From: an uncultured Neglectibacter sp.
GTDB lineage: Bacteria; Bacillota; Clostridia; Oscillospirales; Acutalibacteraceae
Direction of reading: 5' to 3'
Assembly: GCA_946554335.1 (NCBI GenBank)
Contig: CAMNSA010000003.1
Span: 1-64,000, forward strand
Length of the DNA: 64,000 nt
Part shown: positions 53,119 through 57,828 of the stretch, in pieces
Numbering within the stretch: position 1 is the first letter of the stretch
Layout: each line of letters starts with the position of its first letter
Notes under the pieces: generated by a model
What the model was told of the DNA's origin: nothing
What the model saw: only the letters and a program-made list of their open reading frames with translations
Database searches by the model: none
Translations under genes and position numbers: made by a program

Positions 53119-53133
53119 AAAGGGGTGTTTTCC

Positions 53134-55914
53134 ATGACCGAAACGGAGCGCAGACAGGCAGCGAAACAGTTTGCTGCTGACTGGACAGGCCGCGGCGATG
53201 AAAAACAGGAAACCCAGCGGTTTTGGATTGACCTGCTCCAAAATGTATTTGGAGTGGAGCGCCCTACGGAGTACATACAATTTGAAGTCCCGGTCAAGCT
53301 GGGGCATACCAGCTTTATCGACGGCTATATTCCCTCCACCCGTGTGCTCATCGAGCAAAAAGGAAAAGATATCGACCTGAAAAAAGGCTATCAGCAGTCA
53401 GACGGCAGTATGCTGACGCCCTTCGGACAGGCAAGAAGATATGCTGGATATTTGCCCTATAATCAGGTTCCCCGCTGGATCGTGGTAAGCAATTTCCAAA
53501 GCTTTGAAATACACGACATGAACCGGCCCAATGAGGAGCCGGAGATCGTGCTGCTGGAGAATCTGGAAAAGGAGTATCACCGCCTGGGCTTTCTGGTGGA
53601 TACGGGAAACGAAAATATCAAAAAGGAAATGGAAATTTCCTTACAGGCCGGAGAGCTGGTGGGGAAGCTCTATGACGCTCTTTTGAAGCAGTACAAGGAC
53701 CCGGACGACCCGGCGACGCTTCAAAGCCTGAACAAGCTGTGTGTCCGGCTGGTATTTTGTCTGTACGCAGAGGACGCCGGGATTTTCGGGAAAAGAAATC
53801 TCTTTCATGACTATCTGCAAGCGCATAGCAGCGAAGCGCGACAGGCACTAATCAATTTATTCCACATTCTTGACCAGAAGGAAGAAGAGCGAGACCCCTA
53901 TCTGGATGACGACCTGCTGGCCTTTCCCTATGTAAACGGAGGCCTGTTCGCGGATGAAAGCATTGAAATTCCCCGTCTGACGGAAGAGATCGTGGAGATC
54001 ATTTTGCAGAAAGCCAGCGAGGACTTTGACTGGAGTGAAATCAGCCCTACCATTTTCGGGGCGGTGTTTGAAAGCACCCTGAACCCGGAAACCCGACGCT
54101 CAGGAGGTATGCACTACACCAGCATTGAGAACATCCACAAGGTGATAGACCCGCTGTTTCTGGACGAGCTGAAAGCAGAGCTTGCGGAAATCCTTTCTGA
54201 GACCGTGGAGAAGACCCGGAAAGCCAGACTGGAAGCCTACCAAAAGAAGCTGTCAAGCCTGACATTTTTAGACCCGGCCTGCGGGTCAGGAAACTTTTTG
54301 ACGGAAACCTACCTCTCTCTGCGCAGGCTGGAAAACCAAGTCATTTCTGAGCTCCGGCACGGGCAAACATCTTTTGGAGAAGTGCAGAAGGAAAACCCCA
54401 TTCAGGTTTCTATCGGGCAGTTTTACGGCATTGAGATCAACGACTTTGCCGTGACGGTGGCGAAAACTGCCCTCTGGATCGCGGAAAGCCAGATGATGAA
54501 GGAGACGGAGGATGTGGTTCATATGAGCCTTGACTTCCTTCCTCTGAAAAGCTACGCCAATATCATAGAGGGCAACGCGCTCCGCATGGACTGGAATGAG
54601 GTCGTTCCCAAGGAAAAGCTCCATTATATCATGGGGAATCCTCCGTTTGTGGGATATTCCTTACAAAGCAAAGCCCAAAAGGAGGATATTCTTTCCGTCT
54701 ATGTGGACGAAAAAGGAAAGTCCTACAAGACGGCAGGAAAGATAGATTATGTGGCGGGGTGGTATTTCAAAGCGGCGCAGTTTATACAGAACACAGAGAT
54801 ACGCACCGCCTTTGTGTCTACCAATTCCATTACACAGGGGGAGCAGGTGGCGGGCGTTTGGAAGCCGCTTTATGACCGTTTTGGGATACATATTGACTTT
54901 GCTCACCGTACCTTCCGCTGGGACAGCGAGGCCAGCCTAAAAGCTCATGTGCATTGCGTCATTGTGGGGTTCAGCGCTGCCCTGAACAACAAACCGAAAA
55001 TGATTTACTCGTCTGATAGGCCGCAGGAAGCACAGAACATCAATGCCTATTTGTTGGACGCTCCTAATGTTTTTATTGACAGCAGAAAGAGGCCCTTATG
55101 CCCTGTGGCAGAAGTGCTAACTGGAAATCGTCCTGCTGATGGTGGCGCTTTAATTATTGAAGATGACGAGCTTCTTAGCTTTATTGGAAATAAACCAGAT
55201 GTTTCTAAGTTTATTCGCCCCTTTATGCAAGCAACAGATTTTATAAATAACAGAAAAAAGTGGTGTTTGTGGCTCGTTGGAGCTTCACCCAAAGAAGTTC
55301 GTGATTATCCGCAAATTGTTGAGCGTATATCCGCTTGCAAAAATGATCGGTTAAACGCCCCCGATGAGGGACGCAGAAAATTAGCAGATACACCTACATT
55401 ATTTCGTGAACAAATAACGGCAACTGCTGATTACATTATTATTCCTCGCCACTCCTCTGAAAACAGGCGATATGTCCCGATTGGCTATGTAGATAAGTCA
55501 GTTATCTGCGGCGATGCAAACTTGATGATTATCGATACCTCGCTTTATCACTTCGGCATATTGACTTCCAATGTCCATATGGCTTGGACTAGAGCAGTAT
55601 GCGGCAGAATAAAAAGTGACTACCGTTACTCTAAAGACGTGGTTTACAACAATTTCCCCTGGCCCACGCCCACGGACGAGCAAAAGGCCAAGATAGAAGA
55701 AACAGCACAGGCCATTCTGGACGCACGCGCCCTTTATCCCGATTCCAGCCTTGCCGATCTTTACGACGAAACCACTATGCCGCCTGAGCTCCGCAAGGCC
55801 CACCAAAACAATGATAAAGCCGTTATGCAGGCTTACGGCTTTGATGTGAAAACCATGACGGAATCAAGCTGTGTTGCGGAGCTGATGAAGCTTTACCAAA
55901 AGCTGACGAAGTGA
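53134..55914 (+). CDS. MmeI-like Type IIL restriction-modification enzyme
   Basis: 926 residues combining endonuclease, DNA adenine methyltransferase and target recognition in one chain. The nuclease PD-ExK site is Asp63 in FIDGYIP with Glu74-Gln-Lys76 in VLIEQKG. A helical linker follows. The methyltransferase has motif I LDPACGSGNF at about 380 and NPPF at about 502. The target-recognition part spans about 620-835 and a C-terminal domain closes the chain. All catalytic residues are intact. The recognition segment (about 55000-55640) is visibly richer in A+T and uses different codons from the flanks, as expected after exchange of that domain. The ATG at 53134 follows AAAGGGG. Confidence 0.9.
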   Translation: MTETERRQAAKQFAADWTGRGDEKQETQRFWIDLLQNVFGVERPTEYIQFEVPVKLGHTSFIDGYIPSTRVLIEQKGKDIDLKKGYQQSDGSMLTPFGQARRYAGYLPYNQVPRWIVVSNFQSFEIHDMNRPNEEPEIVLLENLEKEYHRLGFLVDTGNENIKKEMEISLQAGELVGKLYDALLKQYKDPDDPATLQSLNKLCVRLVFCLYAEDAGIFGKRNLFHDYLQAHSSEARQALINLFHILDQKEEERDPYLDDDLLAFPYVNGGLFADESIEIPRLTEEIVEIILQKASEDFDWSEISPTIFGAVFESTLNPETRRSGGMHYTSIENIHKVIDPLFLDELKAELAEILSETVEKTRKARLEAYQKKLSSLTFLDPACGSGNFLTETYLSLRRLENQVISELRHGQTSFGEVQKENPIQVSIGQFYGIEINDFAVTVAKTALWIAESQMMKETEDVVHMSLDFLPLKSYANIIEGNALRMDWNEVVPKEKLHYIMGNPPFVGYSLQSKAQKEDILSVYVDEKGKSYKTAGKIDYVAGWYFKAAQFIQNTEIRTAFVSTNSITQGEQVAGVWKPLYDRFGIHIDFAHRTFRWDSEASLKAHVHCVIVGFSAALNNKPKMIYSSDRPQEAQNINAYLLDAPNVFIDSRKRPLCPVAEVLTGNRPADGGALIIEDDELLSFIGNKPDVSKFIRPFMQATDFINNRKKWCLWLVGASPKEVRDYPQIVERISACKNDRLNAPDEGRRKLADTPTLFREQITATADYIIIPRHSSENRRYVPIGYVDKSVICGDANLMIIDTSLYHFGILTSNVHMAWTRAVCGRIKSDYRYSKDVVYNNFPWPTPTDEQKAKIEETAQAILDARALYPDSSLADLYDETTMPPELRKAHQNNDKAVMQAYGFDVKTMTESSCVAELMKLYQKLTK

Positions 55915-55929
55915 CAAAGTTCCATCCCT

Positions 55930-56310
55930 TCCCCTTCTGGAAACAAAGGAAGCTTTTCTAGAACACGCCCTCTCCGTCGCGGCAGAGCCGCGCCACCGTC
56001 TCACCTGCCGGTTCGGTCAGTTCGTGGCAACGCCCCACCGGGGCGTACTCACCCCAGAGGGAGAGGCAAGTCTTGGCTCCCCCTTTGGGGCGCTGGTCGC
56101 CAGTGGCGACCGCTTAGCGCCGCCCGAACCGGCAGGTGAGACCGTTGCTGAACGCATGCCACTGGCATGCAGCAACCGAGCCGGGGAAGATTGCCAGTGG
56201 CAATCGTTCTGACCCGCCCGAGCCGGCAGGCGAGAAAGGCGAGACGGTGGCACGGCGTAAGCCGTGGCTGAGGGGGGGGAGAGCCAAGAAGGTCTGACGA
56301 CTCATATCTA
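55930..56310. repeat. Palindromic repeat island after the restriction-modification gene
   Basis: About 400 bases without a gene, packed with short palindromes: CGCGGC-AGA-GCCGCG, ACGCCCC-ACC-GGGGCGT, GGTCGCCA-g-TGGCGACC, GCATGCCA-c-TGGCATGC, GATTGCCA-g-TGGCAATC and CACGGC-GTAA-GCCGTG. A perfect 19-bp inverted repeat (55998-56016 with 56124-56142) brackets part of it, with a degenerate third copy near 56213. Three hairpins share GCCA-N-TGGC but differ in outer arms. It resembles the dispersed intergenic repeats of gut Clostridia. No transposase or regular spacer array is present. Confidence 0.75.
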
Positions 56311-56330
56311 AAAACTAACAACTAAACAGC

Positions 56331-56364
56331 AAAAAAGCTCTGCGCAAACGCGCAGAGCTTTTTG
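56331..56364. terminator. Bidirectional terminator after the oxaloacetate decarboxylase operon
   Basis: AAAAAGCTCTGCGC and GCGCAGAGCTTTTT pair perfectly around AAAC, with A and T runs on both sides. It lies 19 bp after the minus-strand oadA stop and also closes the plus-strand region. Confidence 0.9.
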
Positions 56365-56382: not shown

Positions 56383-57828
56383 TTAGAAATTGCCGTTTGT
56401 CAGGTCTTCTACCACCAGAGTGCGGGGGGAGTTATCCTGTGCGGGGGCAGCAGGCGCAGTCTGAGCGGCAGCCGGCTCCTCCGTATGAGGGCCGTCTCTC
56501 CACTCCAAAAACTTCTGGGCCACCTGGGGGAACAGCGCAAGGCTCAAAACATCCTCCTCGCACTTGGCAAGGCCGCTTTCCATGGTTTCCTTGCGGAACT
56601 TTTCCATTTCAGGCTCCAACAGGTCGGCGGGGCGGCAGGTGATGACCTCGTCGTTTCCGATGGCTTTCTTCCGCACTTCCTCATTGACCTCGCCGGGAAG
56701 CTGGCCGTATTCGCCGCGAAGCAGACCCTTGGACTCCTTGGTGATCATCTTGTAGCGCTCGCCGGAAAGAATATTGAGCACTGCCTGAGAGCCCACGATC
56801 TGGCTGGTGGGCGTGACCAGAGGCGGATAGCCGAAGTCCTTTCTTACCCGGGGGATCTCCGCCAATACATCGTAATACTTATCCTCAGCGTTGGCCTGTT
56901 TGAGCTGAGAGATCAAATTGGAAAGCATTCCGCCAGGCACCTGATACAGCAGGGTATTGGTGTCTACCTTCAAAACCTTGGGGCTCACGTCCAGCTTTTC
57001 CGCCACGCCCCTGAAGTGGACAGCGGCCTCGGAAAGCTTCTGGAGATCCAGCCCGGTATCCCGGCTGGTGCCCTGCAAGGTGGCCACCATGGACTCGGTG
57101 GCAGGCTGAGAGGTGCCGTTGGCCAGCGGAGAGAGCGCACAGTCTACAATATCCACACCGGCCTGAGCCGCCATCAGGTTGGTCATATCTCCCGTGCCGG
57201 TGGTGTTATGGGTATGCAGGTGAATGGGCACTCCCACATTTTCCTTCAGCTTCTTGACGAGAGAATAGGCGTCATAGGGCAAAAGCAGGTTAGCCATGTC
57301 CTTGATGCAGATGGTGTCCGCGCCCATGCTCTCCAGCTTCATAGCGAGCTTAACAAAATAGTCCTCGCTGTGTACGGGGCTCTTGGTGTAGCTGATGGCC
57401 ACCTCCGCCATGCCGCCGTACTCCTTCACATATTTGACGGCCGCCTCCACGTTTCTCGGGTCGTTAAGGGCGTCAAAAATACGCACGATATCGATGCCGT
57501 TTTCAATGGATTTCTTACAGAAGGCCTCTACCACATCGTCGGCGTAATGGCGGTAGCCCAGAAGATTCTGGCCGCGCAGCAGCATCTGAAGCTTGGTGTT
57601 GGGAAGACCCTTTTTCAGAGTGCGCAGCCGCTCCCAGGGGTCTTCATTCAAAAAGCGCATACACACATCAAAGGTCGCGCCGCCCCAGCACTCCAGGGAC
57701 CAGTAGCCCACACTGTCCAGAAGGGGCAGCACCGGGATCATATCCTCGATCTTCATACGGGTAGCCGCCTGAGACTGATGGGCGTCTCTCAGAATGGTAT
57801 CCGTTATTCTAAGGGGATTTTTTGCCAT
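56383..57828 (-). CDS. oadA: Oxaloacetate decarboxylase alpha subunit, carboxyltransferase part (no biotin domain)
   Basis: 481 residues. The pyruvate carboxylase-type TIM barrel begins ITDTILRDAHQSQAATRMKIEDM, with LECWGGATFDVCMRFLNEDPWERL and HLHTHNTTGTGDM metal and substrate motifs, followed by the PYC_OADA domain. The C-terminal Ala/Pro-rich region has no biotin-accepting EAMKM; the carrier is encoded separately at 59.1 kb. The enzyme moves carboxyl from oxaloacetate to biotin, giving pyruvate. It is the last gene of the Na+-pump operon. Confidence 0.92.
   Translation of the reverse strand: MAKNPLRITDTILRDAHQSQAATRMKIEDMIPVLPLLDSVGYWSLECWGGATFDVCMRFLNEDPWERLRTLKKGLPNTKLQMLLRGQNLLGYRHYADDVVEAFCKKSIENGIDIVRIFDALNDPRNVEAAVKYVKEYGGMAEVAISYTKSPVHSEDYFVKLAMKLESMGADTICIKDMANLLLPYDAYSLVKKLKENVGVPIHLHTHNTTGTGDMTNLMAAQAGVDIVDCALSPLANGTSQPATESMVATLQGTSRDTGLDLQKLSEAAVHFRGVAEKLDVSPKVLKVDTNTLLYQVPGGMLSNLISQLKQANAEDKYYDVLAEIPRVRKDFGYPPLVTPTSQIVGSQAVLNILSGERYKMITKESKGLLRGEYGQLPGEVNEEVRKKAIGNDEVITCRPADLLEPEMEKFRKETMESGLAKCEEDVLSLALFPQVAQKFLEWRDGPHTEEPAAAQTAPAAPAQDNSPRTLVVEDLTNGNF

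Follow-up and report, generated by a model that had tools for sequence, protein, structure and literature searches.

A two-hairpin palindromic repeat, probably mobile, in a hairpin island of an Acutalibacter-like genome

Insertion sequences of the IS200/IS605 family go in on the 3' side of a short motif, leave the target unduplicated, have hairpins near both ends and are active on one strand. The attC of integrons are recombination sites recognized in folded, single-stranded form; their arms vary, and they have extrahelical bases. Guide sequences of IS200/IS605 have been described, and a parallel between REP and attC has been drawn via IntI (PMC8266576). REP sequences and REPINs (TnpA-REP, RAYT) are short, high-copy, intergenic imperfect palindromes that form mosaics; REP carries a strand-specific bulge and a tag beside the hairpin, and is thought to move as folded single-stranded DNA (PMC8266576, PMC3733652, PMC3116915). 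The BOX elements of Streptococcus pneumoniae consist of end modules and variable internal modules and form hairpins, and such repeat families insert into each other (PMC3049150).

We analyzed an island of 381 bp within a stretch of 64,000 nucleotides, hereafter the window, and conclude that the island is probably a mosaic that grew as a small mobile DNA unit, non-autonomous and about 52 bp long, inserted time after time. Like REP and REPINs, the unit is a short, high-copy, intergenic palindrome, folded and strand-specific. Unlike these, it has no unpaired GTAG or CGTC tag at the foot of the hairpin, as judged from the alignment and tallies, it has two hairpins with freely varying stems, a resident Y1 transposase is lacking from this genome and from two of those richest in units, and it is found in Clostridia, a group that the main text of the GTAG/CGTC survey does not name. 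Compared by description, the islands resemble BOX in that end modules enclose internal units whose number varies, but BOX has terminal inverted repeats and target duplications, whereas here the internal units have stems of their own and duplications were not seen. As in IS200/IS605, the unit inserts beside a short motif and the target is not duplicated; at the right junction a base has often been exchanged. The differences are that it targets G-runs, many of them in hairpin loops, and that it has no ends in common with an autonomous tnpA insertion sequence, as far as the Y1 loci examined and the 1.5 Mb read are concerned. With attC it would have in common the recognition as a folded strand with variable arms and extrahelical bases, but here it is the unit itself that would move. 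Because it lacks the REP tag and transposase and the target duplication of BOX, the unit was filed as neither REP nor BOX; it is best read as a small mobile palindromic repeat, which would be REP-like in its working and BOX-like in its modularity. The unit sequence was not found in any paper of the literature searched, and the two-hairpin element appears to be undescribed so far.

Organization of the island and anatomy of the unit

The island is the spacer between an MmeI-like type IIG restriction-modification gene (53125-55914, plus strand) and a carboxylase gene (56383-57828, minus strand), by which the best named relative is Candidatus Acutalibacter stercorigallinarum and which has its own terminator, a hairpin at 56332-56363. 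The three hairpins noticed in a sequence-only reading, GGTCGCCAGTGGCGACC (56095-56111), GCATGCCACTGGCATGC (56154-56170) and GATTGCCAGTGGCAATC (56189-56205), are all present, and ACGCCCCACCGGGGCGT at 56030-56046 makes a fourth perfect hairpin with a 7-bp stem and a triloop. Four such hairpins in 381 bp compare with a mean of 0.04 in 2,000 dinucleotide shuffles, none of which reached four; the remaining 63.6 kb of the window contains 12. The sequence GCCANTGGC by itself was seen three times against 1.9 expected, without enrichment over the whole window. The part that exceeds chance is the clustering together with the flanking complementarity, not GCCANTGGC alone.

The unit is formed of two helices, P1 and P2, on one strand. 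P1 is composed of a 7-bp stem with an RGT triloop (apex CC-RGT-GG), a bulge on the 3' side, GTTC or GTCC in most cases, and an outer stem; P2, of the form C-GA-NNN-GRYA-N'N'N'-GA-G, has a 3-bp stem, a GNNA loop and G·A pairs on either side. The bulge, the loop and the G·A pairs are strand-specific. A fixed core of GCCA-N-TGGC, as proposed earlier, was not upheld: the constant apex of 157 genus units is CC-[G/A/T]GT-GG (triloop GGT in 75, AGT in 72 and TGT in 10), GCCA-N-TGGC is merely a subset of CC-RGT-GG, and the base adjoining the apex CC is also variable, with a total of 26 different 7-bp stems among these units. When rows were anchored on the linker only, 55 of 67 had a perfect 7-bp/triloop hairpin at a fixed offset upstream (3, 10 or 11 nt). 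The linker is the second hairpin, GA-NNN-GRYA-N'N'N'-GAGA, with the stems GCC/GGC, ACC/GGT, GTC/GAC, GGC/GCC, AGC/GCT and GTT/AAC. The alignment of 57 columns includes a left flank of GGGG, AGGG, GCGG or CGGG and the tail GAGAC.

The islands are arranged as head-unit(n)-tail, each with one to several units; in other species the units are often single. The features of the island in the window are listed in the table below. The perfect 19-bp inverted repeat pointed out earlier (GTCTCACCTGCCGGTTCGG at 55998-56016 against 56124-56142) was confirmed; it lies within a 25-nt inverted pair, I1, and represents the P2 linkers of two units in opposite orientation.

Features of the hairpin island, with positions in the window
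Feature	Position	Strand	Remarks
Tail module, composite 1, GGTGGCGCGGCTCTGCCGCGACGGAGAGGGC	55967..55997	-	Read directly; similar tails in L024, L026, L037 and L047
P2 linker, composite 1, GACCGAACCGGCAGGTGAGAC	55998..56018	-	19-bp inverted repeat with 56124-56142
P1 hairpin, T4 type	56030..56046	-	ACGCCCC-GGT-GGGGCGT on the minus strand
Head module, composite 1, CTTGCCTCTCCCTCTGGGGT	56051..56070	-	
Head module, composite 2, TTGGCTCCCCCTTTGGGG	56073..56090	+	G-run at its end, before the first unit
Unit T1	56091..56142	+	P1 GGTCGCC-AGT-GGCGACC; outer stem CGCT/AGCG; bulge GCTT; P2 ACC-GGCA-GGT; tail GAGAC
T3 hairpin	56144..56176	+	GTTGCT-GAAC-GCATGCC-ACT-GGCATGC-AGCAAC; P1 inverted in sense relative to its own P2
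T3 P2, first half, CGAGCCGG	56177..56184	+	Broken by the T2 unit; intact T3 copies have CCGAGCCGGTAGGCGAGA
Unit T2	56185..56236	+	Nested in the T3 P2 loop; GGAA-GATTGCC-AGT-GGCAATC-GTTC-TGACCC..GCC-GGCA-GGC-GAGA
T3 P2, second half, GGCGAGAC	56238..56245	+	After the nested T2
Tail module, composite 2, GGTGGCACGGCGTAAGCCGTGGCTGAGGGGG	56246..56276	+	
Inverted copy of head end, GGGAGAGCCAAGA	56277..56289	+	Pairs with 56071-56083 (inverted repeat I5)

Units T1 and T2 were matched by the covariance model at 56087-56143 (E 4.6e-17) and 56181-56237 (E 8.6e-17), respectively, with their own sequences included in the model. AT-rich heptamer-like tracts (TAGTTGTTAGTTTTTAGTCGTTAG and its complement) flank many islands, as observed at 56290-56330 of the window and in L014, L020, L041, L043 and L047; in L014 they stand inverted at either side, which gives them the look of long, degenerate inverted ends belonging to the composite as a whole. 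At L017 (G000:C1:236800-237550), elsewhere in the genome, a near-identical copy of the 3' end of the window's type IIG restriction-modification gene is found together with its downstream palindrome, which suggests a paralogue with a common C-terminus.

Distribution of the unit and covariation of its arms

A search of the genome and its relatives for the hairpins, as proposed in the sequence-only reading, gave copies well beyond this island, both genome-wide and genus-wide. The 381-bp island matched 85 places in the same genome; of 60 relatives, 28 had matches, and almost all of these belong to the genus. With the covariance model R1, about 92 units were detected in this Acutalibacter-like genome and units were found in 27 of the 29 genomes of the genus, four of which have near 150 among the matches listed; G023 and G013 each have at least about 146-149 among the matches listed. 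The copy counts for genomes were drawn from the searches and from the stretches around the matches. Units were also detected in 18 of 291 sampled Clostridia genomes, belonging to several families, and in 5 of 399 genomes across the phylum. The spread within Clostridia is patchy and at high copy, and in some distant families the units lie in the same type of host palindrome (CCTTGCCTAAA, G-run, unit).

The arms covary far above both shuffled and slid controls in the genome and genus copies, in agreement with the covariation proposed from the window. The main set comprised 53 distinct units, picked by bulge and linker and not by pairing: 90.6% of the cells were paired against 68.9 +/- 1.0 after shuffling, double changes were present in 14 of 16 pairs, and the covariation score was 0.581 compared with 0.184 for shuffled and at most 0.129 for slid controls. 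For P2 alone (61 rows) the score was 0.618 against 0.222. When no structure was given, RNAalifold recovered the inner P1 helix, P2 and half of the outer stem, and placed one more pair, an invariant C-G, beyond the tandem G·A. Because the shuffles ignore relatedness, the slid controls and the 26 different stems carry more weight. Pairing of the arms is preserved in the unit copies.

The suggestion that the hairpins of the window had not arisen by simple copying did not hold, since the three represent three subfamilies with stems that recur in other islands; they are therefore copied subfamilies and not three independent changes in place. In L024 (approximately 390-446) a chimeric hairpin is found, in which the 5' arm of T1 meets the 3' arm of T3 at the apex, a form that recombination at the conserved CC-RGT-GG core could produce.

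Insertion sites and candidates for a helper

Comparison of filled and empty sites among the fetched loci gave an empty counterpart at 43 of 233 unit sites, many of the counterparts (most of them) being paralogous repeats and not orthologous sites. In 41 of the 43, 1 to 5 bases are present where the unit and G-run would be. The units are inserted next to G-runs at most of the 43 sites, often in hairpin loops or in other units; a common junction is GG followed by a replaced T, and no target-site duplication was detected in these comparisons. Against a mobile unit we count that a base is often replaced at the right junction, rather than the join being fully clean, and that the empty counterparts are for the most part paralogous. 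Between L062 (G022) and L214 (G010), the flanks are 88% identical; L062 reads GCGCGGGG, unit (CGCT..GAGAC), CTACCGCGC, and L214, from which the unit is absent, reads GCGCGGGGTCTACCGCGC. At L058 (G027) a unit lies in the T-arm of a tRNA, and a plain T-arm follows a 98%-identical flank at L239 of G009, a genome devoid of units. In the genome under study, L033 (140-420) contains a degenerate second tRNA-Met-like copy beside an intact one, with units at the variable loop and T-arm. The T2 unit of the window interrupts the P2 loop of T3, with CGAGCCGG before it and GGCGAGAC after it, and insertion of unit into unit was found also at L050 and L061. At the site common to L062 and L065, six differences within the unit make up three compensated pairs; this may be replacement by another subfamily, the homologous flank being just about 90 nt. 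Around L062 and the matches in G022:C1 (2.02-2.18 Mb), a tyrosine recombinase-like gene is repeated many times within about 150 kb; G022 is a single-contig genome, and similar clusters exist in related genomes.

The Y1 transposase (PF01797) is missing in this genome, which is 99% complete, and in G023 and G013. It is present in nine of the 29 genus genomes, one of which, G009, has Y1 but no units, and no unit was seen in any of the Y1 loci examined. The Y1/REP transposase and IS110 were both rejected as helper, being missing from high-copy genomes. A parent of the form P1-gene-P2 was not found in the 1.5 Mb read, where only three unpaired P1/P2 pairs were noted, 217-340 nt apart; these were rejected as parent because the spacing is too short for a transposase gene. 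The lack of any enzyme linked to the unit, with Y1 and IS110 missing where copies are many and no parent in the sequence read, also counts against the mobile unit. The genome has one retron reverse transcriptase (L343 1683-2855, G000:C8; PADLOC best match RT_Ec107-like, E 7e-109), and the retron was rejected as source, with no unit at this locus. Carriage by phage or plasmid was rejected for lack of matches among viral contigs, phages and plasmids. With these results, and with no transposase found with unit ends, the earlier concern that the repeat might be the decayed end of a known transposon was not borne out.

Alternative readings and implications

The units might act as transcribed RNA, such as 3'-UTR stabilizers, attenuators or a class of small RNA, with selection on the pairing of the RNA, as the strong covariation, the likeness of P2 to an RNA motif (tandem G·A and a GNNA loop) and the very good folding of the whole island as RNA (z -9.0) would suggest. 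Selection at the RNA level, however, should prefer G·U over A·C, and the 1,570 P1 and P2 cells of the 157 genus units, among which 1,524 are Watson-Crick, 10 G·T, 9 A·C and 27 other, are without such preference, so that the pairing appears to be kept as DNA and not as RNA, as judged from just 19 mismatch cells. Moreover, the units are intergenic in every orientation to the genes (++ 11, -+ 11, +- 10, -- 6), including divergent spacers, without bias; long open reading frames spanning units appear, by eye, to be overextended or spurious. Up to an E of 1, nothing relevant matched among the Rfam covariance models, and a known RNA family was rejected; a transcription terminator was likewise rejected, no unit hairpin being scored as one and the only strong terminator being the separate hairpin behind the carboxylase gene. 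We regard an RNA role as very unlikely. Of the early proposal of pairing in RNA or as a palindromic protein site, the preservation of pairing is supported and the RNA option is disfavored. Double-stranded palindromic sites for a host protein (nucleoid, chromosome organization or a regulator), spread by their usefulness, would account for the nearly fixed palindromic apex CC-RGT-GG, the DNA-level pairing and the high copy number in intergenic space, but a protein reading the duplex needs fixed letters in the arms, which occur as 26 different 7-bp stems, the bulge and the G·A pairs are meaningless in a duplex, and some genomes of the genus have no units. A folded single DNA strand fits better than a duplex because the RGT loop, the side of the bulge and the G·A pairs mark one strand, and duplex sites are likewise considered very unlikely.

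A somewhat less improbable alternative, though still an unlikely one, is that the covariation is mutational, one arm being copied onto the other by template switching or gene conversion, and that the units spread by ordinary repeat recombination. Intermediates are indeed very rare (46 of 1,570 cells are not Watson-Crick), and the exact swaps of three pairs at the L062/L065 site and the chimera of L024 speak for it as well. Yet the same pairing rule is followed in the 3-bp stem and in the outer stem interrupted by the bulge, the nearly fixed unpaired letters (RGT, GTTC, CCGA/GAGA) are not explained by arm copying, and the units enter as discrete blocks whose ends are fixed.

The analysis shows the anatomy of the unit, the covariation, the self-nesting, the patchy spread at high copy in Clostridia and the insertion of discrete units at many sites. 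For the mobile unit, which we consider the most probable source of the island, we infer the mechanism of movement solely from the anatomy and the insertion pattern. Units would have inserted repeatedly into palindromic host repeats and into other units; they lie just 3' of a G-run, often in the loop of another hairpin, and the target is left unduplicated. A putative enzyme acting in trans would recognize the unit as folded single-stranded DNA, reading its shape together with a handful of constant bases (CC-RGT-GG, the bulge, CCGA..GAGA); the letters of the stems would then be free to vary while the arms pair, and copies with unpaired arms would stop spreading. It is a tentative and rather doubtful extension that the unit is a self-nesting single-stranded DNA element with freely evolving stems, served by a shape-reading enzyme outside REP/IS200-IS605 and IS110 that targets the loops of DNA hairpins.

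If the mobile-unit reading is true, Clostridia would gain a mobile palindrome of REP-like kind whose two-hairpin build is its own and which evidently has no resident Y1 transposase, an element shared by nearly all species of one genus and dispersed over several families. Stems free to vary, fixed letters in loop and bulge, insertion into the loops of hairpins and G·T no commoner than A·C would together offer a concrete, testable case for shape-based recognition of folded DNA in genome evolution, and covariation between intergenic bases, however strong, is no evidence of RNA when taken alone.
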